Virus record (IMG/VR): IMGVR_UViG_3300020378_000024
Span: 1 to 30,289 of that record
Reading direction: 5' to 3' (one strand)
Source of the DNA: a virus
Length of the DNA: 30,289 bases
Under the pieces are notes generated by a model that saw nothing but the letters and a program-made list of their open reading frames with translations, was not told where the DNA came from and did no database searches. Shown here in pieces: positions 3,929 to 17,517 of this stretch (within the stretch, counting starts at the first letter, position 1; each line of letters opens with the position of its first letter). Made by a program: the position numbers and the translations under genes.

Positions 3929-4208
3929 TCCTGCTTTTTATGAGTCTTATACCATTTTCTCTAAGCCACCCTCTCAACACATCATTATGCATATCAGGGT
4001 ACTTCTCTTTTACTTTTTTACAAACTTCATTATAAACCTTTAATCCCTTGTAGTAATCACTATGCCCTAGCTTACACATACGAACTATCTGCCACACCCT
4101 CTGTTTTGAAATTTTATATTTCATACCTATCTCTTCTAAAGTAGCGTCAGAATTTTTATACAACATGTATATAGAAAAATACATTCTCTTTTTATCGTAC
4201 CTAGTCAT
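3888..4208 (-). CDS. HTH protein with sigma-70 region 4-like motif
   Basis: A 106-aa protein. Residues 22-42 (ATLEEIGMKYKISKQRVWQIV) match the pattern of sigma-70 region 4 and related helix-turn-helix domains (LxEIGxxxxIsxxRVxQI), which recognise -35 elements or operators. The C-terminal half is basic and helical with no further motif. It lacks regions 2 and 3, so it cannot be a full sigma factor; it may be a transcription regulator or a sigma-appropriation protein acting on the conserved intergenic elements of this phage (inference). The start ATG 4208 overlaps the stop of the cytidylyltransferase gene. Confidence 0.65.
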   Translation of the reverse strand: MTRYDKKRMYFSIYMLYKNSDATLEEIGMKYKISKQRVWQIVRMCKLGHSDYYKGLKVYNEVCKKVKEKYPDMHNDVLRGWLRENGIRLIKSRNGSEISTSNNRLS

Positions 4209-4614
4209 TAATATACCTTTGTCTTAAATCAGTGCTAGAAAATCCATGTTGTCTAGAGTTGTAGTAGATTTCTTTATCAGAGCGTGGGTTATTAAATTCT
4301 GTACAGCCAGTAAATGCTTTTCCTTTATATTCCTCACCTATTATTCTTACATGCCATTTTACCATATTGAGTAAGTTTAATAAATCTTGCTCTGTTTCAT
4401 AACAAATTATTTCGTCCACATATTTACAACCCTTTAATTGTATCTGTCTTTCTATCAAACTTTGTATGGGTTTGCTTTTACTGTCTCTTTCTAAACTAGG
4501 GTCAATATGTAGTCCTACAATTAAATAGTCACAAACACCTTTAGCTTCTTCTAGCATAGCAACATGTCCTGCGTGTAATAAATCAAAAGCACTAAAAGTA
4601 ATACCTATCTTCAT
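4201..4614 (-). CDS. Cytidylyltransferase-like nucleotidyltransferase
   Basis: A 137-aa protein of the HxGH nucleotidyltransferase superfamily, closest in look to glycerol-3-phosphate cytidylyltransferase (TagD) and the C-terminal domain of RfaE. TFSAFDLLHAGHVAML spans residues 6-21 with His14 and His17; the second nucleotide-binding motif, GFSSTDLRQR, is at about 124-133. Full length for the family. It would couple CTP or ATP to a phosphorylated small molecule, making an activated donor such as a CDP-alcohol or nucleotide sugar. The start overlaps the PolA stop (ATGA). In this context an activated donor for DNA decoration is attractive; host-surface or cofactor metabolism is the alternative. 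Confidence 0.8.
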   Translation of the reverse strand: MKIGITFSAFDLLHAGHVAMLEEAKGVCDYLIVGLHIDPSLERDSKSKPIQSLIERQIQLKGCKYVDEIICYETEQDLLNLLNMVKWHVRIIGEEYKGKAFTGCTEFNNPRSDKEIYYNSRQHGFSSTDLRQRYIND

Positions 4615-6482
4615 TTAAAATACTCCAAATAATTTTCTATCTCTCCCCAGCTTTTACCTATCTCAGCATCTACTTTATTAGGTACATTGATTTTTACACA
4701 GTCTCTCATAACCTCAATGACTTTTTCACATTCCTGTTTATCTTTAACAGATATATTTAACTCGTCATGCACTTGAGTATGTGCGAGTATACCTTCTTTA
4801 TGTAAATCCAGCATAGCTTTTTTAGTCATGTCTGCTGCTGAGCCTTGTATAAGTCGATTCATAGCCTTATATGTAAAAGCCCTTTTAAGCCCTTTTCCAT
4901 ACGTTTCGAGGGCTTTTTCGTAGGGGTAAGGGGTATCCCTATACGACATAGGTTCGTAAAGGTTAAAGCGACACTTACGTCCTAGAATAGTCTTTATATA
5001 ACCTCTATTTGACCCTAGCCTAGCACAAGTATCTCGTAGACCACGGATAAAAGGTACTCGTTCATGATACTGATCAAATAGTATTTGACCCTCTTCTTCA
5101 CTAATACCTAATTGACGTATGAGTTTATCTTTACCCATACCATAACTCAAACCTAGATTTATATTCTTAGCTTCCTTACGACTTATGTTAGCCATGTCTG
5201 CTACTATTTGATGAAAGTCTGCATCATCTGTGTAAGCCTCTGCTGCCTCTTGTGCACCTTCTTGTTTAGTAAGTAGCGAGTAATGTACTGTAAGTCTAGG
5301 CTCTTGTTGAGAGTAATCAAAACAACCCCAGTGACAGTCTTCTTCTGGTATAAATAAACTTCTTATTAAACTGCCTATTTCTGGATCACGAGCTGGTACT
5401 TGTTGTAAGTTAGGGTTGCTACAACTAAACCTACCAGTGACTGTGCCTCCATCATCTGACCTTAAAGGGTGTAGTTCCCCATGTATTCTACCGTCTACCT
5501 CGTGGTCTAAAATCATTTTATCTATAAAAGTAGTTCTAGCTTTATTAAGTTTTCTAGCCTGTGCTATCGCTAGTGGTAATTTATGGTCATGTGCCTCTAA
5601 CCAAGCAGAAGTAAAACTCGGTGCATTTAGTTTTGGCGATCTAGGGTAATCTAAACCAGCTCTGTCAAATACCTGTGCGACTGATGCTGCTGCCCATAGG
5701 TCAGGGGTAATACCATACCAATTTTTTATTTGACTTAATATCTTTTGTTCTTTACCCTTTAACTCCTGACTAACTCTATCTGCTTTATCTAAATCGACTC
5801 TTACACCACGTCTCCTCATCTCTATAAGTACCCTTATTAAAGATGACTCAAGTTTATATATTTCACTAACCTCTTCCTCTTTTATTTTCTCTTTTAGAGT
5901 TTGCCATAATCTATAGGTAAGGTCAGCATCTTGCTCACCATACATGCCAACATATTTGGGTTCTAATTTATACATCTCTGATTTAGGGTTTAGCCCAAAT
6001 GCTTCTGCTGCCTCGGTTAAAAGTTTTTCATCTTTTAATTCTCCCATAAACCTTTCGCCTAAACTGTTGAGAGAGTATCTCCTCTCGTTTTCATTTATCA
6101 AAGGTGCAGCAATCATAGTGTCTTGTACAGTACCATTAACAGTAAAGCCCTCATAAGTAAGCCACCCTAAATCATACTGTGCGTTATGAAATACTTTATC
6201 GTTGTCATGCTCTAACTGTTTAGCTAACCATTTATAGACTACTCCTCTATCTAAATTAGCCCCATAATGATGAGCCACAGGGAAATAACCTTTCCAACCT
6301 TCTGTAGCTATACCTATCCCAATTATTTCTCCTTGCTTACAAGCCCAGCTCGGACCATGAGTCATAAGCAGTGGGTCTCTAGTTTCTAAATCAATAGCTA
6401 TCTCTTTAGCTTGTGTTAAATCAGGGAAACTATCTGGGGGTGTCCAGTCGGACTCAGGTGGAAAGAAACTTTTTTGATCCAT
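4611..6482 (-). CDS. polA: Family A DNA polymerase with 3'-5' exonuclease
   Basis: A 623-aa replicative polymerase. The proofreading domain has Exo I IDLET (Asp31, Glu33), Exo II FHNAQYD (Asn100, Asp104) and Exo III YGEQD (Tyr181, Asp185). The polymerase domain has motif A DYSQQEPR (Asp389), motif B RKEAKNINLGLSYG (Arg435, Lys439, Tyr447) and motif C VHDE (571-574). No 5'-3' exonuclease domain. The residue equivalent to E. coli Phe762 is Leu443, a variant reported in many marine phages and linked to altered ddNTP discrimination and slower, more accurate synthesis. All catalytic residues are present. The start ATG 6482 is coupled to the preceding gene (TAATG). It lies just downstream of the modification genes, consistent with a polymerase that must accept a modified pyrimidine. 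Confidence 0.96.
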   Translation of the reverse strand: MDQKSFFPPESDWTPPDSFPDLTQAKEIAIDLETRDPLLMTHGPSWACKQGEIIGIGIATEGWKGYFPVAHHYGANLDRGVVYKWLAKQLEHDNDKVFHNAQYDLGWLTYEGFTVNGTVQDTMIAAPLINENERRYSLNSLGERFMGELKDEKLLTEAAEAFGLNPKSEMYKLEPKYVGMYGEQDADLTYRLWQTLKEKIKEEEVSEIYKLESSLIRVLIEMRRRGVRVDLDKADRVSQELKGKEQKILSQIKNWYGITPDLWAAASVAQVFDRAGLDYPRSPKLNAPSFTSAWLEAHDHKLPLAIAQARKLNKARTTFIDKMILDHEVDGRIHGELHPLRSDDGGTVTGRFSCSNPNLQQVPARDPEIGSLIRSLFIPEEDCHWGCFDYSQQEPRLTVHYSLLTKQEGAQEAAEAYTDDADFHQIVADMANISRKEAKNINLGLSYGMGKDKLIRQLGISEEEGQILFDQYHERVPFIRGLRDTCARLGSNRGYIKTILGRKCRFNLYEPMSYRDTPYPYEKALETYGKGLKRAFTYKAMNRLIQGSAADMTKKAMLDLHKEGILAHTQVHDELNISVKDKQECEKVIEVMRDCVKINVPNKVDAEIGKSWGEIENYLEYFK

Positions 6483-6772
6483 TATTTTTTATTAGTCATG
6501 TGACCTTCTACAAGTAGTAAATACCTTCTTAGGTCTCTTATATCATCAAGTATACCAGTGTTGCTAGGGTCTTCTAATATAGTTTTAAATATATCGTAGC
6601 CGTTCTTTTTACACTGATTCTCTATCCTATCAAACTTTCTAGCTAACATCATAAATGCACCAACACCACCACGAGAACGCCAACTGTCACCATAACTGAC
6701 CTGTGCTTCCTCTAGCTTTTCTACATCATTATGGGCTAGTAATTTAATTAAATCAAAGTTAGATCCATTCAT
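6482..6772 (-). CDS. Nmad1/DUF1599-like small protein
   Basis: A 96-aa helical protein with YGDSW (27-31), RGGVGAFMMLARKFDRIE (34-51) and DDIRDLRRYLLLVE (76-89). This resembles the phage domain called DUF1599 or nucleotide modification associated domain 1, which is found near DNA base hypermodification genes and may act on free nucleotides, as MazG-like all-alpha pyrophosphatases do. Family assignment is from memory of the motif and was not searched. The start is fixed by GAGGAG eight bases before ATG 6772. It sits between PolA and the Cas4-like gene in the modification/replication run. Confidence 0.6.
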   Translation of the reverse strand: MNGSNFDLIKLLAHNDVEKLEEAQVSYGDSWRSRGGVGAFMMLARKFDRIENQCKKNGYDIFKTILEDPSNTGILDDIRDLRRYLLLVEGHMTNKK

Positions 6773-6774
6773 AA

Positions 6775-7461
6775 TTAATACTCCTCATATTTTTCTCTAC
6801 ACATATTCTGCTTACCAAAATAACACCACTTACACTTCCACTTAGAAGGATTAGCAGGAAACTCTGTAGCCTCAGTCATTTCTACAGCTCTTATATGTAT
6901 CTTATCTCTTTTGATATTTATACTCTCTTGAGTATAGATGTATCTATCTATTTTACCATGATCTAAATACCACATCTCTGTGATAATTTTTTCTAACTCA
7001 GGGTATCTTTTCAGGGCTATACCACCGTACAGCTCACACTGTTCTTTATGTGCTTCTTGATTGCCTTCGTATCTACCTGTCTTAAAATCAATTACTCTGG
7101 CTTCTTTAGAGTTTCCCTCGTCGTACACAAACGCATCTACTTTAGCTCTGCCCCATGTATCTTCATCAAACCAACCTGTTTGATCCCAGTCTTTAGTTAT
7201 AGCCCAGTCACTTTCACATGTCACCTGACCAAGTTCATGTAGTTCTTTTAGTTTTACAAATGCTTCTTCAAACTCTCTTAACTCTTTCGGTAATTCGTCA
7301 AACCTACCACGAATGTACTCCTCACATAGTTTATGCATATCCTTACCACGATCCATGGCAGGACTTCCAGGCTCTTTTATCTTTTTAATAAATTTAAACT
7401 CAGCTTGTTTAGGACACTTCTCATAACAACTAAGACGACTATAAGACCACTGTTCGATCAT
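6775..7461 (-). CDS. Cas4/RecB-like PD-(D/E)XK exonuclease with Fe-S cysteines
   Basis: A 228-aa protein opening with WSYSRLSCYEKCPKQ, the usual start of RecB/Cas4-type nucleases. Catalytic set: GKDMHKL (His43), Asp109, VIDFKTGR (Asp125, Lys127) and QCELY (Gln141, Tyr145). Cys16 together with Cys210, Cys213 and Cys221 would ligate a 4Fe-4S cluster as in Cas4 and AddB. Likely a single-strand or end-processing exonuclease in recombination, repair or host DNA breakdown. No cas1, cas2 or repeat array is nearby, so CRISPR adaptation is not implied. The start at 7461 has AGGAG six bases upstream. It follows the thymidylate-synthase-like gene after 13 nt. Confidence 0.85.
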   Translation of the reverse strand: MIEQWSYSRLSCYEKCPKQAEFKFIKKIKEPGSPAMDRGKDMHKLCEEYIRGRFDELPKELREFEEAFVKLKELHELGQVTCESDWAITKDWDQTGWFDEDTWGRAKVDAFVYDEGNSKEARVIDFKTGRYEGNQEAHKEQCELYGGIALKRYPELEKIITEMWYLDHGKIDRYIYTQESINIKRDKIHIRAVEMTEATEFPANPSKWKCKWCYFGKQNMCREKYEEY

Positions 7462-7474
7462 TTGATTCTCCTGT

Positions 7475-8524
7475 TTACTTTATTCTTCTAGATAACCATC
7501 TAAAACAAGCTTCCATCCAGTCATCAGCCTTACAGTGTTGTATTTCTATAAGTGCTTCTTCTTTCATACCTTTCTTAGAAAGATACCAAGCATCTTGTAT
7601 AGGGGCTGCGACCTCAGAGAAAAATGGGTCGTTAAACTCCAACTGCTCAAAAGGTTTTCTAGTAAAAAACATAATTAAGTCAAATTCCCAATCACGGAAG
7701 CCTACGCTAACCATAGGATAGGGATTTACTTCGTCTAGTTTATACGGATTGTGATTAATTAATAGCTTTATTGTGTAATAATCAAAAGAATCTATCTGTA
7801 GTAGTTTTTCTCTCATAGGCTCGTACACGTTTAAATATGCATGATAATTATTACTTACCTGATAGTACTTACCTATTCGGATACCTGTTGCTGCAGCTAC
7901 AAACTCATGCAGCATTGACATGTGCACTACGTTAGCTCCATATGCACCCCAGATAATATCGTTTGACCTATTTGATACTGTCATATCGAGACGAGGACTG
8001 TAGCCGTCAATGTGTACAGTTTTAAAGTATATAGCCGTATTACAGGGTACGTCAGCTCCATCTCGCCCTAAATCGCCCACAGCGTCCCACATTTGTAGTA
8101 CACAGCGTCTGTCATAAATGTCATTTCTAAGTCTATCGATGATAATTCTTATTTGATCTTTGCCAGCAAAATCTTTAAACGTGGGGTCTTTAAAATAACT
8201 ACGCCATCTCCATCCATACGCTCCCCACAAAGTATCACCATCATCACTATACCTACTCATGCCTTTATTGTAATGTTCCATAGTGGCTAAGTCATTAAAA
8301 CCAGCTAACATCCATAAACCTTCCATAAAATGGAAAAAGGGGTTAGCGTCTCTATCTGGGTCAAATAAAACTCTCTCACGAGGGTTAGCATAAACTGTAG
8401 TGACAGGGTCTTCTACAGTGATAACTTCACCGTTCCTAGTTTTTTCTACGTGACCGTGTGAGTCTAATAAGTCCATGCCTCTCAAAAAGGCATCGTTCAC
8501 GTTTCTACATTTTAGTGTGTGCAT
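7475..8524 (-). CDS. Thymidylate synthase / dUMP hydroxymethylase-like enzyme
   Basis: A 349-aa member of the thymidylate synthase fold, longer than cellular ThyA (about 264 aa). Seen: HFMEGLWMLAG (65-75), the phosphate-binding RR at 139-140, the nucleophile Cys161 in VPCN, RSND (186-189) and GAYGAN ending at Asn198, plus HAY (228-230). Asn198 corresponds to the residue that selects dUMP over dCMP, so a dCMP enzyme is unlikely. The residue after the nucleophile is Asn, not the His of standard ThyA, and the Asn198 loop is one residue longer, as in divergent phage enzymes. With a glycosyltransferase and an aGPT/HMUDK-like gene directly upstream, synthesis of 5-hydroxymethyl-dUMP is plausible; plain dTMP synthesis remains possible. 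AGGAG precedes ATG 8524. Confidence 0.85.
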   Translation of the reverse strand: MHTLKCRNVNDAFLRGMDLLDSHGHVEKTRNGEVITVEDPVTTVYANPRERVLFDPDRDANPFFHFMEGLWMLAGFNDLATMEHYNKGMSRYSDDGDTLWGAYGWRWRSYFKDPTFKDFAGKDQIRIIIDRLRNDIYDRRCVLQMWDAVGDLGRDGADVPCNTAIYFKTVHIDGYSPRLDMTVSNRSNDIIWGAYGANVVHMSMLHEFVAAATGIRIGKYYQVSNNYHAYLNVYEPMREKLLQIDSFDYYTIKLLINHNPYKLDEVNPYPMVSVGFRDWEFDLIMFFTRKPFEQLEFNDPFFSEVAAPIQDAWYLSKKGMKEEALIEIQHCKADDWMEACFRWLSRRIK

Positions 8525-9300
8525 TACTCTCCTACTCCTTCTTTATATGCTTTCTTCCAACCTATGATTACATCCTTACGAGGTAGTCCGTTCCAAGCAG
8601 TTTTAGTTTGTTTCTCTACTACCTTAACACATGTAGGGTGTAAGGAGTGTAGTCTTTCTGCACCTTCATTGTGTACATCAATAGTTCGCCACTCACTACA
8701 ACCACCGTCAGCGTTAGATGATTTTTGACCTTGTGCGTAATAGAAACTTACCTTACATGCTTTACCTTTTCTCAGCAGTTGTAGGGCTATATCAAAATCT
8801 TCCATTACCCTAGTCCTACCCCACTCTATATCATCAGGAAACTCGTTTAAGTTATAAGCGAGTACCCTCATGTATCGAGTATTTTCTACAGATAAATCTT
8901 CTACCCTATTATTACCCTCCCTAGCACTTACACCCACGTGGGCATAACCTTGACTGAGCCACTCGTCTAATAAGCCAAACATAGCAGGATACTCATCAGA
9001 CTCTAAGTATCGTAAGTGCCAGTCGGTAGGGCTTTTACGAATGTAAAAACGTAAATCATCATCTAGCATAACTATATGGGGGTCATCGCTATGCTCTATA
9101 ATATATTTTCGTTTAGCCCCTATGCCTATACAGTCCTCTGGGACTACCATTTTAGGTGTGTTAGGATATTTAGTATATAAGTGTTGCTCATCGTGGTCAA
9201 TGACTAACGTCACGTCTCCATTAACTTGCATCCATTCGGGAAACCATTTTAGAGTTTCTTGATTAGTGGGTCTTCCACGAGTTGGTATATATATTTTCAT
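8524..9300 (-). CDS. GT-A glycosyltransferase-like, possibly TET-associated type
   Basis: A 258-aa protein opening MKIYIPTRGRP, as in GT-A nucleotide-sugar transferases, with the metal-binding DDD at residues 80-82 (HIVMLDDDLRF) and a possible catalytic acid in VMEDFD (165-170). The conserved IGIGAKRKYIIEH (58-70) precedes the DxD segment, as in GT-A proteins encoded by phages next to base-modification enzymes (TAGT group; recalled, not searched). Predicted to move a sugar onto a hydroxymethylated base or another acceptor. Its start overlaps the stop of the aGPT/HMUDK-like gene (ATGA) and its stop overlaps the TS-like start, so the three are translated together. Surface-glycan or capsid glycosylation is the alternative. 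Confidence 0.72.
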   Translation of the reverse strand: MKIYIPTRGRPTNQETLKWFPEWMQVNGDVTLVIDHDEQHLYTKYPNTPKMVVPEDCIGIGAKRKYIIEHSDDPHIVMLDDDLRFYIRKSPTDWHLRYLESDEYPAMFGLLDEWLSQGYAHVGVSAREGNNRVEDLSVENTRYMRVLAYNLNEFPDDIEWGRTRVMEDFDIALQLLRKGKACKVSFYYAQGQKSSNADGGCSEWRTIDVHNEGAERLHSLHPTCVKVVEKQTKTAWNGLPRKDVIIGWKKAYKEGVGE

Positions 9301-10157
9301 AAGTATTGTGCCTCGTTAAAATTAGGGTATTTACTGTAGTTATATTTTGCTCTAGGTCTACCCTCGCCTAACCTAGTTCTCTCATATTTATCAAACTCAC
9401 ATAAACTATGCTCTATCTCTCTCATCTCTAGCTTTGGTACATGTGGCTCTAGATATTTATCTGCTATTTGTAAAAGCTCATACATCTCTGCGTTCCAGTC
9501 ATGTTTATTTGAGTCCCAAGTAAGCGTTCTTAAATTCATTCTATTTAGTCCACGCTTTGCTCCTGGACCTGGATTTGCCCAAGTATATATATCACGAGCA
9601 TTCCTTAATAAATGTGTGTGCCTTAAATCTGTGACAACTTCGTATGACATAAACCCACTAAATCCAGCGTAAGGAAGATAGTTTCTCCAAGTCTCTTCTA
9701 AACTACCAGAAACTATCTCTGGGTGGTTATTATATAAAGGTGTAAGTATTTTGTCTACTGTTTGTTCTATCTTAGTACCACCTAAAGTACCTGTCAACAT
9801 ATATGCACCTGTGTAAACTTTTTCTCCTCTATCCATTCTATCCTGCATTATGGCTTTTACCTTTTCTGGTTGCCAATCCTCAGGGAAACCTATCTCTTCT
9901 AGGGTGGATGGCCAATTTATTTGACGAGCCACGGACATTGAGAAAGCTAAGTTAGGGTGGTCAAAGTATGGCTCTCTCCAGTTTGTTCTTACCCATTCTG
10001 TGACTGTGTCTAGTTCTCTAAACACATTACAAAAACTATAAGTTTTTAATATCTTATCTTCTGTCCACGGTGGATGAAGACCGTTTTTTCTCCTTAAATA
10101 TATTTGGTGTCTTTCATTTATGTAGTTAAAAAACCCTTCTACTTTATCTTGTACCAT
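9297..10157 (-). CDS. 5-hmdU kinase helical domain / aGPT-PPlase-like DNA hypermodification protein
   Basis: A 286-aa protein, mostly helical. The region RKNGLHPPWTEDKIL..YSFCNVFRELDTVTEW (23-56) has the hallmark of the family called 5-hmdU DNA kinase helical domain and its relatives, the alpha-glutamyl/putrescinyl thymine pyrophosphorylases, which work on 5-hmdU or its pyrophosphate ester in phage DNA. Later segments: TGAYMLTG (117-124), WRNYLPYAGFSGFMSYEVVTDLRHT (162-186), WANPGPGAKRGLNR (193-206). No P-loop is present, so it is not itself a kinase; it may be the transferase/glycosylase-like part. Family recognition is by motif memory, not a search. It overlaps the 155-aa gene by 19 nt and the glycosyltransferase by 4 nt. 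Confidence 0.7.
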   Translation of the reverse strand: MVQDKVEGFFNYINERHQIYLRRKNGLHPPWTEDKILKTYSFCNVFRELDTVTEWVRTNWREPYFDHPNLAFSMSVARQINWPSTLEEIGFPEDWQPEKVKAIMQDRMDRGEKVYTGAYMLTGTLGGTKIEQTVDKILTPLYNNHPEIVSGSLEETWRNYLPYAGFSGFMSYEVVTDLRHTHLLRNARDIYTWANPGPGAKRGLNRMNLRTLTWDSNKHDWNAEMYELLQIADKYLEPHVPKLEMREIEHSLCEFDKYERTRLGEGRPRAKYNYSKYPNFNEAQYL

Positions 10158-10606
10158 GATGGTGTACCTCGTTTAGTCCATTTCGCGAATACTTTTTCGC
10201 CTATATAATAGTTTCTATATGCCTCGACTGCATTCCCCTGAACTTTATATTGATCAGGCATGCATTGTGGATGTTCTTGTAGCCCTTTACTTTTTATCAA
10301 AGGGTTGGGCAGTGACATAATAACATCGTAAGATTTATGACATACGTTTTTATTATATCGCCACATAAATTCTTCATTGAGACAAATTAACAAGTCCTTT
10401 AGCCATAGCCAATTATCTAGACTGGCTGCAGACCATATAGTACAAGGGTGTTTCATATGTACAGGTCTGTAAGGTGCTGTTTGATCATGAATCCAAAAAC
10501 TTGTACAAAGCATTTGAGCTGACTCTAAAATCATTTTAGACACATGTTTGTCACAGTGCATTTCTGCTGCAGTCTGTATATTATTGTCTAATTTAAAAAT
10601 ATTCAC
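10139..10606 (-). CDS. Conserved phage protein, 155 aa, His/Cys-rich, first gene of the modification run
   Basis: Pattern: MNIFKLD near the N-terminus, then AAEMHCDKHVSKMILESAQML (14-34), HPCTIWSAASLDNWLWL (53-69), and ECMPDQYKV-like sequence near 113-122 (PQCMPDQYK) with AYRNYY (128-133). Proteins with this arrangement are common in marine and T4-like cyanophages, where I recall no proven function; some annotations suggest a DNA glycosylase, which I cannot confirm. The conserved His, Cys, Asp and Lys residues (HCDKH, HPC) look catalytic or metal-binding. It overlaps the aGPT/HMUDK-like gene, and the conserved intergenic element copy C lies 23 nt upstream, so it probably begins the modification transcript. 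Confidence 0.65.
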   Translation of the reverse strand: MNIFKLDNNIQTAAEMHCDKHVSKMILESAQMLCTSFWIHDQTAPYRPVHMKHPCTIWSAASLDNWLWLKDLLICLNEEFMWRYNKNVCHKSYDVIMSLPNPLIKSKGLQEHPQCMPDQYKVQGNAVEAYRNYYIGEKVFAKWTKRGTPSWYKIK

Positions 10607-10651: not shown

Positions 10652-12145
10652 CTAAAAAATAAACTGTTTTCTAGTTTTAGACCTCACTATGTGTAGGTTT
10701 TCTTTAGTTCTAGTCACACCTACATAAAAGTTTCTACACTCGTTGTCAGGGTTTCTATATAATTCATCGTAAGACTTAGTAGCCATATCAGATAATAAAA
10801 CTACGTTGTCACACTCACCACCTTTAGAAGCATGTATAGTGCTAAGTTTTATCCTTGATGTATTTAAGTTTTCTTTTCTCCTCAAGCAAGATATTAGGTA
10901 CTCTCTCTGAGTTATACCTATAAGGTCAAATGATTCATGCCATATACCGTCTACTAATAAACCATAGTCTCTTTTTAAATCTCCCATACTCAAAACTGTA
11001 TCGCCTAATAAACTTTTTAATGTTTTATACCCCTTCTTAACTCCCTTACCAGCCCTCATATACGAGTAGATTTTTCTTATACTGTCAGCTTCTATTTTCT
11101 GACCTTTCCTTAACCTTTCCCAATCTTTTATAGCATTGATTAAAGTATCAGACACAGGAGATTTACCTGCCCTCTGATAAAATCTACCAGACTTTTTAAG
11201 GTAGTCCTCTACTTGATTCAGTAGATAATTATTTCTAGCTAAAAATAACCATTCACCTTCTGACACATCAATATGTTCAAAATCCATATGTATATTTATT
11301 TGACCCTCTTCTTCTCTAGGCTCCCATACCTTTTCCTTTCTATTACCTATTCTTTTTACTATTCTTAATGCCACATCGTGTACTTTTCTAGGTACTCTGT
11401 ATGATTGTTTTAAATAAATGTTATTACCTTTTAAATTTATAAAATGATTTACATCAGCACCTGCCCATTTATAAATGGCTTGATCATCATCACCAGCTAT
11501 GTACACATGCTTTACACCTTCTGCTAATTTTTCTACACACTTCCACTGTAGAGCTGATAAATCTTGTGCCTCGTCTATAATTAATACATCTAAGTTAGGT
11601 TTGGTGTCGTGAGTAAGAAACATCTCTAACATGTCTGTAAAATCGATTAAAAAGTTTTGGCTCTTATACTTAGAATAGTTTTTACAAAACCAATTAAAAT
11701 GCATCCATGTTATATCTAAATCGTTAGCGTTGTTCCATATTTCTTTATAGCCCATTGATTGATTACGAGCCATGTTTTCTAAGAACAGCATTCTATCCCC
11801 CTTGCTTGATAGTGTCATTATATTTTCACCATCCCACGCAGAGTTTATTCTCTCACCTATAGTCCTACTAAACTCTCTAAGATTACTCCTAGCTAATACA
11901 TCGTTCTTAGTAAAACCTAACCAATGATAACAGAGTGAGTGTAGCGTCCTAAAATAACACAGCTCTTGGCTTGTGTATGAAAACTTACCCATAGCTCTTG
12001 CGAGTGCTTCGTTTGCAGCTTTTTTAGTAAATGCTAAGTAGCCAAGTTTTTCTGGTGGAGTACCTTTCTCAAAATACTCTTCTACTTTGTTCAAAAGGTA
12101 CGTTGTTTTTCCAGTTCCAGGTGGACCAAGAACCACGTTATACAT
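10652..12145 (-). CDS. SF1 DNA helicase, UvrD/Rep-like
   Basis: A 497-aa superfamily 1A helicase with all main motifs: Walker A GPPGTGKTT (7-15), LAFTKKAANEA (38-47, motif Ia region), FRTLHSL (65-71), Walker B VLIIDEAQD (187-195), IAGDDDQAIYKWAG (216-229), SYRVP (248-252), STIHASKGGECDNVVLL (435-451) and YVGVTRTKENL (474-484). It should unwind DNA 3'-5' with ATP. At under 500 aa it lacks most of the accessory 2B material of cellular UvrD. The start ATG 12145 overlaps the primase stop (TAATG), so helicase and primase are co-translated and are likely partners at the fork. No DnaB-type helicase is seen in the window, so this may be the replicative helicase, or a recombination helicase if another lies outside. 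Confidence 0.93.
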   Translation of the reverse strand: MYNVVLGPPGTGKTTYLLNKVEEYFEKGTPPEKLGYLAFTKKAANEALARAMGKFSYTSQELCYFRTLHSLCYHWLGFTKNDVLARSNLREFSRTIGERINSAWDGENIMTLSSKGDRMLFLENMARNQSMGYKEIWNNANDLDITWMHFNWFCKNYSKYKSQNFLIDFTDMLEMFLTHDTKPNLDVLIIDEAQDLSALQWKCVEKLAEGVKHVYIAGDDDQAIYKWAGADVNHFINLKGNNIYLKQSYRVPRKVHDVALRIVKRIGNRKEKVWEPREEEGQINIHMDFEHIDVSEGEWLFLARNNYLLNQVEDYLKKSGRFYQRAGKSPVSDTLINAIKDWERLRKGQKIEADSIRKIYSYMRAGKGVKKGYKTLKSLLGDTVLSMGDLKRDYGLLVDGIWHESFDLIGITQREYLISCLRRKENLNTSRIKLSTIHASKGGECDNVVLLSDMATKSYDELYRNPDNECRNFYVGVTRTKENLHIVRSKTRKQFIF

Positions 12146-13659
12146 TATAAGTCTGACCCCTCAAAGTTAGTTGGCTCAAGCTCTAAGTTCTCTACTCCAT
12201 ATTCAAACTCAGGTATAGACCATACATTAACTCCCCTACCTTTTAAGTTTAAAAACTTGTGTTCAGCTTTCATGTCTCTTAGCTTAGATGCTATTCTGTT
12301 AGTATCCATTTCTGTGAACCTGTGTTTTAAAAGGTACTCTTTTAAATCTTTAATTCTAAAAAAGGTACGACTATCTTCTGTGAAAGGCTTACCTAAAAGT
12401 ATCTCGTCTCTTGTATTAGCTTGTGCCATATCAGTACAAAAAGATTCGAGTAAATCCATAAACTGCCCCTCTACAGAAATATCATCACTTACCTCTATAA
12501 TCTCCATACCGTTGTCCATTAAGTTTTGTATAAGAGTCTGCCAAGCCCTGTCGTTCATACGCTGTGGCATTATATTTAAAATCTCCATACACACTCTTTG
12601 AAACTTTATTTGATTTTGAAGTTGTTCGGTGCTTAACTCTAATCTTTTATCATCAATAGATAAAAACCAGAGAGGTGGATTACTGTCTAACTTAGCTAAA
12701 CTAGAGAATGTAGGAGCCGTGTTCCCGTTGCCGATGCCGTACTTACAGCTCCTACATTTACTTACATTACAGTAAGACTTGATTGGTTCATCTGAGCATT
12801 TATAGTTGTACTCTTTTTTTCTTAATGTACTTATTAAGGTTAAAACTTCTTGAGCAGGTAAAGGTGGTGTCACATATTTTCTGTTATACTCTTCTATCTC
12901 AGTTTCCCAAGTTTCTGGTATAGCTTTCTTTAAATATACACCCACATTAAATAAACCATTATTTCTTGTGCCTTCTGGAAAACCTTGTTTAAGTAATACT
13001 TGTAGACAAGGTGGACCGTCTTTCATGTCATCTAATAGAGGTACTTCTAACTCTAGTAATTCTTCTAAACTTAACGACCTTTTTTCTATATGCTCTATAA
13101 AGCCGTCTATACTTAGTGCCTCGCCCTTAGTATCGAAAGCGTACCTAAGAGAGTTTTCGCCCTCGAAATAGGGCATATTTAGCCATGAGCCTAAGTCTCC
13201 CCTATCTACTAATACCTCTCTTTGCTTAGGAAATATCTCTACACCACCATAACCTAGTCCTGCAGATATTTCTCTTAACTTATCTTGCATATCTCCTGCA
13301 CTTACTCGCTCTCGAGTAAAACAGTATATGTGAGCTCCACCACTTTTACTTCTACACACTATAAGTGGTAAGCCAAATTCTTCTATCTTTAATACTAATT
13401 TTTTTAAATCTAATGAGTATTGGTCAACGTCAATGGCACCCCACCGTACCATGTTTTCTTCGTCTATAGGTATAATACCTAGCCCTGATTTACCACTAAG
13501 GTGGTCGTCCCAATGATTTGTAGTAGCCCCTACAGTTTTAATAGTTTTTGCTTTACCTGATTTTTTCTGACCTGTAGTTGCTATGTCAACAGTAAAAGTA
13601 CCATGAGCTCTGTTAGAGCCTCTGAATATTTCATTTAATTTATTTGAATAATTCTCCAA
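12145..13659 (-). CDS. Archaeo-eukaryotic-type primase (TOTE-like AEP) with zinc-binding segment
   Basis: A 504-aa protein. The AEP catalytic core shows WGAIDVDQY (73-81; Asp77 and Asp79), VCRSKSGGAHIYCF (101-114) and GGVEIFPKQ (138-146), followed by GSWLNMPYF (157-165). This matches the primase-polymerases described in TOTE conflict systems and many phages. After GTRNNGLFNVGVYLKK (230-245, PriCT-like) comes a cysteine group (Cys288, Cys297, Cys302, Cys305) suited to zinc. The C-terminal third is unassigned. It starts at TTG 13659: GAGG is five bases upstream and the frame has no ATG or GTG between the upstream in-frame stop and this codon. A strong hairpin lies just upstream of that ribosome-binding site. 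Confidence 0.85.
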   Translation of the reverse strand: MENYSNKLNEIFRGSNRAHGTFTVDIATTGQKKSGKAKTIKTVGATTNHWDDHLSGKSGLGIIPIDEENMVRWGAIDVDQYSLDLKKLVLKIEEFGLPLIVCRSKSGGAHIYCFTRERVSAGDMQDKLREISAGLGYGGVEIFPKQREVLVDRGDLGSWLNMPYFEGENSLRYAFDTKGEALSIDGFIEHIEKRSLSLEELLELEVPLLDDMKDGPPCLQVLLKQGFPEGTRNNGLFNVGVYLKKAIPETWETEIEEYNRKYVTPPLPAQEVLTLISTLRKKEYNYKCSDEPIKSYCNVSKCRSCKYGIGNGNTAPTFSSLAKLDSNPPLWFLSIDDKRLELSTEQLQNQIKFQRVCMEILNIMPQRMNDRAWQTLIQNLMDNGMEIIEVSDDISVEGQFMDLLESFCTDMAQANTRDEILLGKPFTEDSRTFFRIKDLKEYLLKHRFTEMDTNRIASKLRDMKAEHKFLNLKGRGVNVWSIPEFEYGVENLELEPTNFEGSDL

Positions 13660-15179: not shown

Positions 15180-15761
15180 TTAAACGCCACTTCTAAATGT
15201 GAGGTTGATTCTCTCTCCACAACCTTTCATATCTAACACTGCGTGTGTACTTCTCATTTGAGATTTACCGTCAAATATAAAAACATCTCCATCTTCCATT
15301 AAATAATGTGTCAAACTTTTTTTAGGAATATACTTAGTGTATATTTCACTAGTGTCTACTCTATCTTTTATGTTCTTTTCGTACTCTAGCCATTCAAATA
15401 CTCTCGGTGCACCAAGAGACACGGACAAAACTATGTCATTTTTAGTAGGTACTGTATCAGAGTGGTGGGGTATGCCTTTACCTTCTGGTCCATAATACCC
15501 ACACAAACAAAAATTAAATTTTACTTTTCTCTTTAACTTCTCACTTACTAAATATTCTGCGTTTAATTTTATAGCAGTCATAGGAGTGGTCCATGGCTCA
15601 GGCTCATATAGTTTACCAGCATAATTAAAAGGGCTATCACCAAATCCACGAGTTGGTCTACCTACTACCTTTTTACCTTTATACATGCGAACTCTTGGCT
15701 CGTCCCAAGTAGTTATGCCACAATCAAAACCTGTAAATTCTCCTTTTATAAATTCCATCAT
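15180..15761 (-). CDS. AlkB-like 2-oxoglutarate/Fe(II) dioxygenase
   Basis: A 193-aa protein with the AlkB pattern: FNFCLCGYYGPEGKGIPHHSD (83-102) giving the HxD iron ligands His100 and Asp102; the distal ligand His173 in STHAV; and ERINLTFR (183-190) where Arg184 and Arg190 bind 2-oxoglutarate and substrate. AlkB enzymes oxidise alkylated bases to reverse damage; some phage and viral members protect nucleic acid or may act on modified bases. Length is close to that of E. coli AlkB. It is the first gene leftward from the control region. ATG 15761 and ATG 15758 are adjacent and neither has a clear Shine-Dalgarno. A role in base modification is inference. Confidence 0.85.
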   Translation of the reverse strand: MMEFIKGEFTGFDCGITTWDEPRVRMYKGKKVVGRPTRGFGDSPFNYAGKLYEPEPWTTPMTAIKLNAEYLVSEKLKRKVKFNFCLCGYYGPEGKGIPHHSDTVPTKNDIVLSVSLGAPRVFEWLEYEKNIKDRVDTSEIYTKYIPKKSLTHYLMEDGDVFIFDGKSQMRSTHAVLDMKGCGERINLTFRSGV

Positions 15762-16074: not shown

Positions 16075-17517
16075 ATGAGTCAGTTTATTTATAAAACCAC
16101 ACCGTATGCTCATCAGATAAGTGCATTGAAGATGTCATGTGATAAAGAAGCATTCGCTTTATTTATGGAGATGGGCTGTGGTAAGTCAAAAGTAGTAATT
16201 GACAACTTTGCTAAGTTGTACATAGATAAAAAACTGAACGGTGTACTCATAGTTGCACCCAAAGGTGTATACGATAATTGGTTTACATACGAAATACCAA
16301 CACACTTACCTGACGAAATACCAAGATCGGTAGTCAAATGGTCAAACGCTAATACTAAAAAGAATAAAGAAAACTTAGAAACTCTGTTTGATAAATCAGA
16401 TGAGCTAAAGATATTTATTATGAACATAGAAGCATTCAGTACAAAGAAAGGTACTGAGATAGCTTCTAAGTTTTTAATGGAACGTCAATGTATGTTTATT
16501 ATAGATGAAAGTACAACTATCAAAAACTACAAAGCTAAGAGAACTGTCAATACTGTAAGACTTGGTAAGTATGCATATTATAAAAGAATACTGACAGGCT
16601 CTCCTGTGACAAAAAGTCCACTAGATTTATTTAGTCAATGTTATTTTCTAGACCCATCACTACTAGGTTTCAGTAGTTATTTTTCATTCAGAGCAAGGTT
16701 TGCTGACTTAGTAGAACGTTCCATGAACGGTAGGAACTTTAAATTAGTCACAGGCTATAAGAACTTGAACGAATTAAATGAATTATTAAGGTCATTTAGT
16801 TTCCGTATCTTGAAAAAAGAATGCCTTGACCTTCCTCCAAAAGTGTATATTAAGCGAAAAATAGAGATGACAGACGACCAAAAACGCGTCTACAAGGATA
16901 TTCAACGCAATGCTTTAGCCGTACTGTCAGGCGAAAAGGTCACAATTAACTCTGTAATTACACAAATAGTGAGATTACATCAAATATCTTGTGGTTTTAT
17001 AAATACTGATGAGGGTACTACGAAAGAGTTAGATTCTAATAGGTTGGAAGAATTATTACAGATAATAGAAGAAGTTCAAGGCAAGGTTATTATCTGGGCT
17101 AACTATAGGCATGACATTAGAAAGATAAATAAAGCCCTCAGTGAGAAATATGGCTCTGACTCAGTAGGTATGTACTTTGGTGACGTACAACAATCAGAGC
17201 GTGAAGGTATTATAAGGGATTTTCAAAACCCTGACAGTAAAATGAGATTTTTTGTAGGTAATACACAGACAGGTGGTTATGGTATTACCTTGACTGCTGC
17301 AAATACAGTCATATATTATTCTAATAATTATGATTTAGAGAAAAGGCTACAGTCAGAAGATAGAGCTCATCGTATCGGTCAAAATGATAAGGTCACATAT
17401 ATTGATATAGTGTGTGAAAAAACTGTTGATGAAAAAATAGTGAAAGCCTTGCGTCAAAAACAAAACATTGCTCAAACTGTGCTTGGTGAAGAAAAGTGGA
17501 AAGACTGGTTAGTTTAG
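16075..17517 (+). CDS. SNF2-like SF2 helicase/translocase
   Basis: A 480-aa SNF2/Rad54-like ATPase. The Q-motif-like YAHQISALK (11-19) precedes motif I MEMGCGKSK (31-39); motif II is DEST (144-147) in place of DEAH; motif III LTGSPV (173-178); motif V GNTQTGGYGITLT (395-407); motif VI QSEDRAHRIGQ (426-436). Phage members are thought to move along double-stranded DNA in replication, recombination or fork reversal. It is the only substantial plus-strand gene and stands alone. No Shine-Dalgarno precedes ATG 16075 and a TATAAAT lies 15 bp upstream, so a very short leader is possible. Its stop codon overlaps that of the convergent virion gene. Confidence 0.93.
   Translation: MSQFIYKTTPYAHQISALKMSCDKEAFALFMEMGCGKSKVVIDNFAKLYIDKKLNGVLIVAPKGVYDNWFTYEIPTHLPDEIPRSVVKWSNANTKKNKENLETLFDKSDELKIFIMNIEAFSTKKGTEIASKFLMERQCMFIIDESTTIKNYKAKRTVNTVRLGKYAYYKRILTGSPVTKSPLDLFSQCYFLDPSLLGFSSYFSFRARFADLVERSMNGRNFKLVTGYKNLNELNELLRSFSFRILKKECLDLPPKVYIKRKIEMTDDQKRVYKDIQRNALAVLSGEKVTINSVITQIVRLHQISCGFINTDEGTTKELDSNRLEELLQIIEEVQGKVIIWANYRHDIRKINKALSEKYGSDSVGMYFGDVQQSEREGIIRDFQNPDSKMRFFVGNTQTGGYGITLTAANTVIYYSNNYDLEKRLQSEDRAHRIGQNDKVTYIDIVCEKTVDEKIVKALRQKQNIAQTVLGEEKWKDWLV

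Follow-up and report, generated by a model that had tools for sequence, protein, structure and literature searches.

Among the described systems of thymine modification in phage DNA, those of the M6, YuA and PaMx11 type come closest to the locus considered here; the route of M6 and its relatives is believed to run through 5-hydroxymethyldeoxyuridine (5-hmdU; PMC6449724). M6 and Sonora encode HMUDK_hel as a protein of its own, beside a P-loop 5-hmdU DNA kinase (PF18748) and together with an amino acid:DNA transferase (AADT; PF18724). The subject of this report is a gene cassette on the linear IMG/VR virus record IMGVR_UViG_3300020378_000024, whose 30,289 bases were analysed as a whole and are referred to as the window. 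Like M6, Sonora, Lucjan and other phages of this type, the window encodes a homologous HMUDK_hel and a homologous thymidylate synthase (TS)-like enzyme (41-44% identity), with genes close to each other and near that of PolA; unlike them, it has no P-loop kinase, AADT or Nmad5, and a glycosyltransferase of the TAGT family stands in their place. It is reasonably probable that the cassette specifies a kinase-independent pathway of thymine glycosylation, in which HMUDK_hel presents the base to the predicted glycosyltransferase.

Glucosylation of 5-hydroxymethylcytosine (5-hmC) in T-even phages follows a comparable plan, with a TS homologue, dCMP hydroxymethylase, that hydroxymethylates the nucleotide before replication and glycosylation in DNA afterwards, by alpha/beta-GT and the TAGT family. 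The window differs in its uracil-type TS and its HMUDK_hel, and its TAGT would be the primary transferase, whereas the T-even TAGT adds a second sugar. Kinetoplastid base J (glucosyl-5-hydroxymethyluracil) is of the same kind as the product predicted here, but its synthesis relies on JGT and on JBP dioxygenases, whose substrate is thymine in DNA. A paper of 2019 stated that no glucosylated 5-hmdU had been reported from phages (PMC6449724). The cultured Brevibacterium phage LuckyBarnes carries TS, two TAGTs and HMUDK_hel in one overlapping cluster (gp38-gp41, annotated as TS, two glycosyltransferases and a hypothetical protein) and likewise has no kinase or AADT; its cluster differs from that of the window in its reversed order, its two TAGT copies, a C-terminal extension of the TS and an identity of 27-34% to the window genes.

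In clades V, VIII and IX of the HTVC023P-type pelagiphages, TS and 'aG/PT-PPlase1' lie near PolA, sometimes with a beta-glucosyl-HMC-alpha-glucosyltransferase, and the set from these uncultivated phages was read in 2022 as M6-like hypermodification, perhaps broadened (PMC9599517). The window has the same genes by PolA, and its PolA is 47-50% identical to those of this lineage; the window phage is a marine phage related to phages that infect Pelagibacter. Because this co-location near PolA had been published, the gene set is not wholly undescribed, as the initial annotation had supposed it might be. The loss of kinase and AADT, their exclusivity with glycosyltransferases and the exchange of glycosyltransferases are, however, not reported in the available part of that paper. 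Work from 2026 speaks of many solitary TAGTs of undefined function, and its available part describes neither loss of kinase and AADT nor an exchange of partners (PMC13216743).

The genes of the locus, by position in the window, are as follows.

10139-10606, minus strand: phrog_624 protein of 155 amino acids (phrog_624 E 4e-46)

9297-10157, minus strand: HMUDK_hel (PF18723; aGPT-PPlase/HhH DNA-glycosylase fold) of 286 amino acids (Pfam E 1.9e-45; phrog_2396 E 5e-61)

8524-9300, minus strand: TAGT (PF20691) GT-A glycosyltransferase of 258 amino acids (Pfam E 5.6e-24; phrog_842 E 4e-51)

7475-8524, minus strand: TS-superfamily protein of 349 amino acids (Pfam Thymidylat_synt E 6.5e-22; phrog_5131 E 3e-110)

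These four open reading frames within 7475-10606, with successive overlaps of 19, 4 and 1 nt, are arranged as the initial annotation had described them, and the profile searches that it proposed placed HMUDK_hel, TAGT and the TS-like protein in the expected families. When IMG/VR was scanned with the 286-amino-acid protein, 389 relatives were found, and the best 80 of the 389 loci were read. HMUDK_hel, TAGT and TS follow one another in this order and on one strand in all 76 of the 76 first-scan IMG/VR loci that have the three genes. The linkage is therefore non-random. The 155-amino-acid gene had been counted as a member as well, but it is directly upstream of HMUDK_hel in only 62 of the 76 three-gene loci (it is placed elsewhere in L057 and L080), and phrog_624 is present in 572 phage records of varied kinds. 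This gene is therefore a neighbour and is ruled out as a cassette member, leaving a core of three genes.

Loci in which HMUDK_hel is accompanied by a glycosyltransferase lack the two enzymes that accompany it in M6. Neither PF18748 nor PF18724 was found in any of 20 contigs of this glycosyltransferase class (35-65 kb, several of them 59-65 kb); the same searches find both in L085, which is of the kinase class (the M6 kind). PF18724 was also not found in 10 further records of the glycosyltransferase class, and in the cultured phages LuckyBarnes and WilliamStrong, whose genomes are complete, HMUDK_hel, TS and TAGT are present and both kinase and AADT are absent. A sensitive kinase profile made from a varied set of 15 sequences gave a hit in six of the seven phages used for comparison and in none of 28 records of the glycosyltransferase class. 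This profile detects the kinases of PhiW-14 and nACB2, which Pfam misses, and the divergent kinase of Det7; Montesquieu is matched weakly. TAGT, for its part, was not found in the kinase-class records. Absence of the 5-hmdU DNA kinase and AADT from the whole lineage, and their mutual exclusivity with glycosyltransferases, had been missed by the initial annotation. Judged by its genes, the lineage thus has what appears to be the TS-superfamily dUMP hydroxymethyltransferase of the M6-type pathway and has neither the kinase nor AADT.

These absences bear directly on whether the cassette is part of an ordinary M6-type hypermodification, the kinase and AADT being outside the sequenced part, too divergent, or host-derived, and the glycosyltransferase being an extra decoration. 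The window is a linear fragment of 30.3 kb, and such an explanation is close to the published reading of the pelagiphages, which interprets TS and aG/PT-PPlase1 in this lineage as M6-like (PMC9599517). Yet both enzymes are missing from contigs of up to 65 kb and from complete genomes, a profile that reaches divergent kinases finds none, and the kinase and AADT are mutually exclusive with the glycosyltransferase; taken together, this makes an M6-type pathway very unlikely.

The exclusivity can be counted. Of 63 non-redundant HMUDK_hel loci, 22 carry a kinase and/or AADT and 37 a glycosyltransferase; the two classes are never combined, and 4 loci have neither nearby. A Fisher test gives p 3e-13 but ignores kinship, and counts on the tree are the safer statement. 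The partner class changes five times on the full HMUDK_hel tree and three times on a reduced tree from which the longest branches were removed; on the latter, grouping the glycosyltransferase class into one clade is rejected by an approximately unbiased (AU) test (p 0.002). HMUDK_hel has thus switched partner class at least three times. Nodularia phage 2AV2 is the only one among the records searched to have HMUDK_hel without a partner of either class, its gene (L301:6908-7867) being isolated in a record in which kinase, AADT and TAGT were not found.

The glycosyltransferase itself is also exchanged. At locus L080 a GT-B-type enzyme occupies the position that TAGT has in its sister L057 (both of a marine clade), and a relative of this GT-B enzyme replaces TAGT on the metagenome-assembled genome contig L336; L339 has the arrangement TAGT-HMUDK_hel-TS. 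At L166, TAGT and sugar-1-phosphate nucleotidylyltransferase-like and APH-like proteins are encoded beside HMUDK_hel, and further HMUDK_hel loci add FkbM methyltransferases, radical-SAM/SPASM enzymes or GT61. Loci L092, L102, L157 and L163, where HMUDK_hel is found with radical-SAM/SPASM, FkbM, GT61 or two TAGTs, are candidates for further-modified sugar bases. The second TAGT copy of L102 (L102:8867-9700) is broken into two open reading frames, by a frameshift or an assembly error.

With regard to HMUDK_hel, the 286-amino-acid protein matches PF18723 at 155.9 bits (cut-off 25), with residues 6-264 aligned to positions 4-277 of the 281 in the profile. It is 41-44% identical to M6 ORF055 and Sonora gp42 and has no P-loop kinase domain of its own. 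Of 97 columns conserved in kinase-class HMUDK_hel, 57 are identical across all seven lineages of the glycosyltransferase class, and many of these are charged. Most simply, HMUDK_hel would have one role in both classes, which is to recognise 5-hmdU in DNA and present it, while the catalytic partner is exchangeable. An AlphaFold (AF2) model of the protein (predicted local distance difference test, pLDDT, 93.7) has as its best VIA-align match the PaMx11 enzyme PUGT (8z2n; Z 11.7 over 212 residues), a 5-PmdU glycinyltransferase of the AADT family, followed by base-flipping HhH DNA glycosylases (Ogg, EndoIII and Mag enzymes; Z about 9-10). Foldseek alone gave no significant match to the model, and searches of PDB sequences with the protein (phmmer) and with a 48-sequence profile gave nothing meaningful. 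An hhalign comparison of HMUDK_hel with AADT profiles was not significant (probability 1.5). Because PUGT belongs to the AADT family, the modelled fold hints at a remote kinship between HMUDK_hel and AADT, which is seen in the fold alone.

The 258-amino-acid protein scores 85.7 bits against PF20691 (cut-off 27.5), and phrog_842, which it also matches, is the family of the T-even beta-glucosyl-HMC-alpha-glucosyltransferase. Its D80-D81-D82, the GT-A metal-binding DxD, is invariant in 30 relatives, and its AF2 model (pLDDT 92.6) has TarP and other GT-A enzymes as best Foldseek matches. TS and surface glycosyltransferases are common in phages. Together with the TarP-like fold, this would suit a cassette that does not modify DNA at all, its TS making dTMP for replication and its glycosyltransferase altering host surface sugars. 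Such an account is most improbable, as both enzymes strictly co-occur, in fixed order, with a member of a DNA-modification family, the TS groups with the M6 dUMP hydroxymethyltransferases and away from thyA, and TAGT is a family of phage DNA glycosylation. TAGT is predicted instead to transfer a sugar to 5-hmdU in DNA.

The 349-amino-acid TS-like protein is closest to annotated deoxyuridylate hydroxymethyltransferases of M6- and Bordetella-phage genomes (42-44% identity). Whether such an enzyme is specific for uracil or cytosine is decided by Asn or Asp, respectively, at the residue equivalent to Asn177 of E. coli TS (PMC8670742). The window protein has the catalytic Cys161, an Asn162 in place of His147 and, at the specificity position, the uracil-type Asn198, not the Asp of a dCMP hydroxymethylase; M6 has Asn there as well, and the CMP hydroxymethylase MilA has Asp. 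The alignments with M. tuberculosis TS and MilA show this correspondence to the E. coli position as well. The uracil-type Asn is shared by all aligned relatives except WilliamStrong. By these residues and its nearest relatives, the protein is probably a dUMP 5-hydroxymethylase, and a cassette for thymine or uracil modification with a glycosyltransferase, as the initial annotation had it, is supported over one for cytosine.

From the gene identities, the linkage, the absence of kinase and AADT, the exclusivity, the repeated exchange of partners and the unchanged conservation of HMUDK_hel, all computed here, we infer the following chemistry. The TS-like enzyme would convert dUMP into 5-hydroxymethyl-dUMP, a step suggested by homology to M6-type enzymes and by the uracil-type Asn, and the nucleotide, once phosphorylated, would replace a portion of the thymidine in DNA. 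After replication, TAGT would take a sugar from a nucleoside diphosphate sugar and attach it, in DNA, to the 5-hmdU hydroxyl group; the resulting glycosyl-5-hmdU would be similar in kind to base J. HMUDK_hel, with its HhH DNA-glycosylase fold, would recognise 5-hmdU and present the base to TAGT. In M6-type phages it presumably serves the stand-alone P-loop 5-hmdU DNA kinase in the same way; HMUDK_hel would thus be a reader subunit with an exchangeable catalytic partner. Most likely, then, part of the thymine becomes a sugar-coated base that resembles base J of trypanosomes. PF12851 (TET/JBP) matched none of 26 records, in a search in which the controls were equally silent.

Several observations weigh against thymine glycosylation with HMUDK_hel as the reader. 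Most of the contigs may be fragments. The L163 glycosyltransferase matches known families only weakly and that of L081 matches none. The latter, a 360-amino-acid protein encoded directly upstream of HMUDK_hel (L081:8885-9964), is GT-B-like by eye; it had no match in Pfam, NCBIfam, PHROGs or PDB, a pattern scan of IMG/VR found only the protein itself, and its label is by eye only because it does not match the L080 or L163 glycosyltransferase either. TAGTs of known activity use cytosine-derived bases, that of T6 acting on glucosylated 5-hmC (PMC13216743). The TS of the Microbacterium phage WilliamStrong (L300:5102-5890) is Asp-type despite the presence of TAGT and HMUDK_hel, so HMUDK_hel may not always serve uracil, and WilliamStrong is possibly a cytosine version of the same system. 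These last two points, and the fact that MilA is the best PDB match of the window TS, would fit a cytosine pathway in which 5-hydroxymethyl-dCMP is the product of the TS homologue, TAGT adds a sugar to 5-hmC in the manner of the T-even phages, and HMUDK_hel is incidental. With the uracil-type Asn in the window, in every aligned relative but WilliamStrong and in M6, a phage with 5-hmdU derivatives in its DNA, a cytosine pathway is decidedly unlikely for the window.

The record MW202897 also weighs against HMUDK_hel as the reader, as it has TAGT and a similar TS and no HMUDK_hel, and TAGT therefore need not require HMUDK_hel; no relatives of its TAGT were found in IMG/VR. HMUDK_hel might instead be a catalytic transferase in its own right, acting in the manner of PUGT on the glycosylated or hydroxymethyl base, with TAGT independent of it. 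That its best fold match is a transferase speaks against a mere reader and for this alternative, as do the invariant charged residues retained in both classes. In M6-type phages, however, HMUDK_hel sits beside a separate AADT, so that this job is already taken; the HMUDK_hel and AADT profiles do not match, and the glycosyltransferase class has no kinase to make a leaving group. A catalytic HMUDK_hel is accordingly unlikely.

Beyond the cassette, the genes that follow it in the window are these.

6775-7461: PD-(D/E)XK exonuclease, between the TS and the 96-amino-acid gene

6482-6772, minus strand: protein of 96 amino acids with no family match, recurring with the cassette in relatives

4611-6482: PolA

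4201-4614, minus strand: cytidylyltransferase-fold protein (PF01467 E 1.8e-12)

PolA and the cytidylyltransferase fold had been recognised in the initial annotation; the exonuclease intervenes, and an Nmad1-like label given to the 96-amino-acid gene was dropped. This protein has no Pfam match, alone or by way of 22 homologues, and none in NCBIfam or PHROGs, and the Nmad1 label thus has no profile support. It carries a YGDSWRxRGG motif, and the position of its gene varies around the cassette; in relatives it often separates the HMUDK_hel and TAGT genes. The long TS proteins of LuckyBarnes and Montesquieu are weakly similar to it in their C-terminal part, and this similarity suggests that it may be a TS-linked accessory. 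The cytidylyltransferase-fold protein is nearest to heptose-1-phosphate adenylyltransferase and glycerol-3-phosphate cytidylyltransferase (rfaE_dom_II E 5e-19, under the NCBI cut-off); in many relatives its gene was not observed around the cassette, so that it is optional, and the idea that it supplies an activated donor is speculative. In a related phage, 023Pt_psg01, the order of primase, helicase and PolA is that of the window, but the cassette is missing.

Other genes of the window include a replication primase (12145-13659) with a match to PF22548, the AEP primase domain found in TOTE conflict systems, and a SNF2-type helicase (16075-17517) that is the sole long plus-strand gene, the rest of the window being minus-strand. 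An AlkB-like 2OG-Fe(II) oxygenase is encoded at 15180-15761; the gene of its homologue adjoins the cassette in L014, L015, L028, L036 and L045, where it lies between a UvrD helicase and phrog_624.

Collectively, these results separate HMUDK_hel from the kinase that gave it its name, provide solitary TAGTs with a specific predicted substrate and partner, and correct the reading of the pelagiphage lineage as one of M6-like amine hypermodification. Relatives of the 286-amino-acid protein are encoded on about 390 IMG/VR stretches. It is conceivable, though we hold it at somewhat short of even, that HMUDK_hel is a general reader of 5-hmdU coupled to interchangeable catalysts (kinase, GT-A, GT-B and GT61), joined in some lineages by FkbM and radical-SAM/SPASM enzymes, and that marine and soil phages would hence contain a whole range of as yet unrecorded thymines, glycosylated and then elaborated further.

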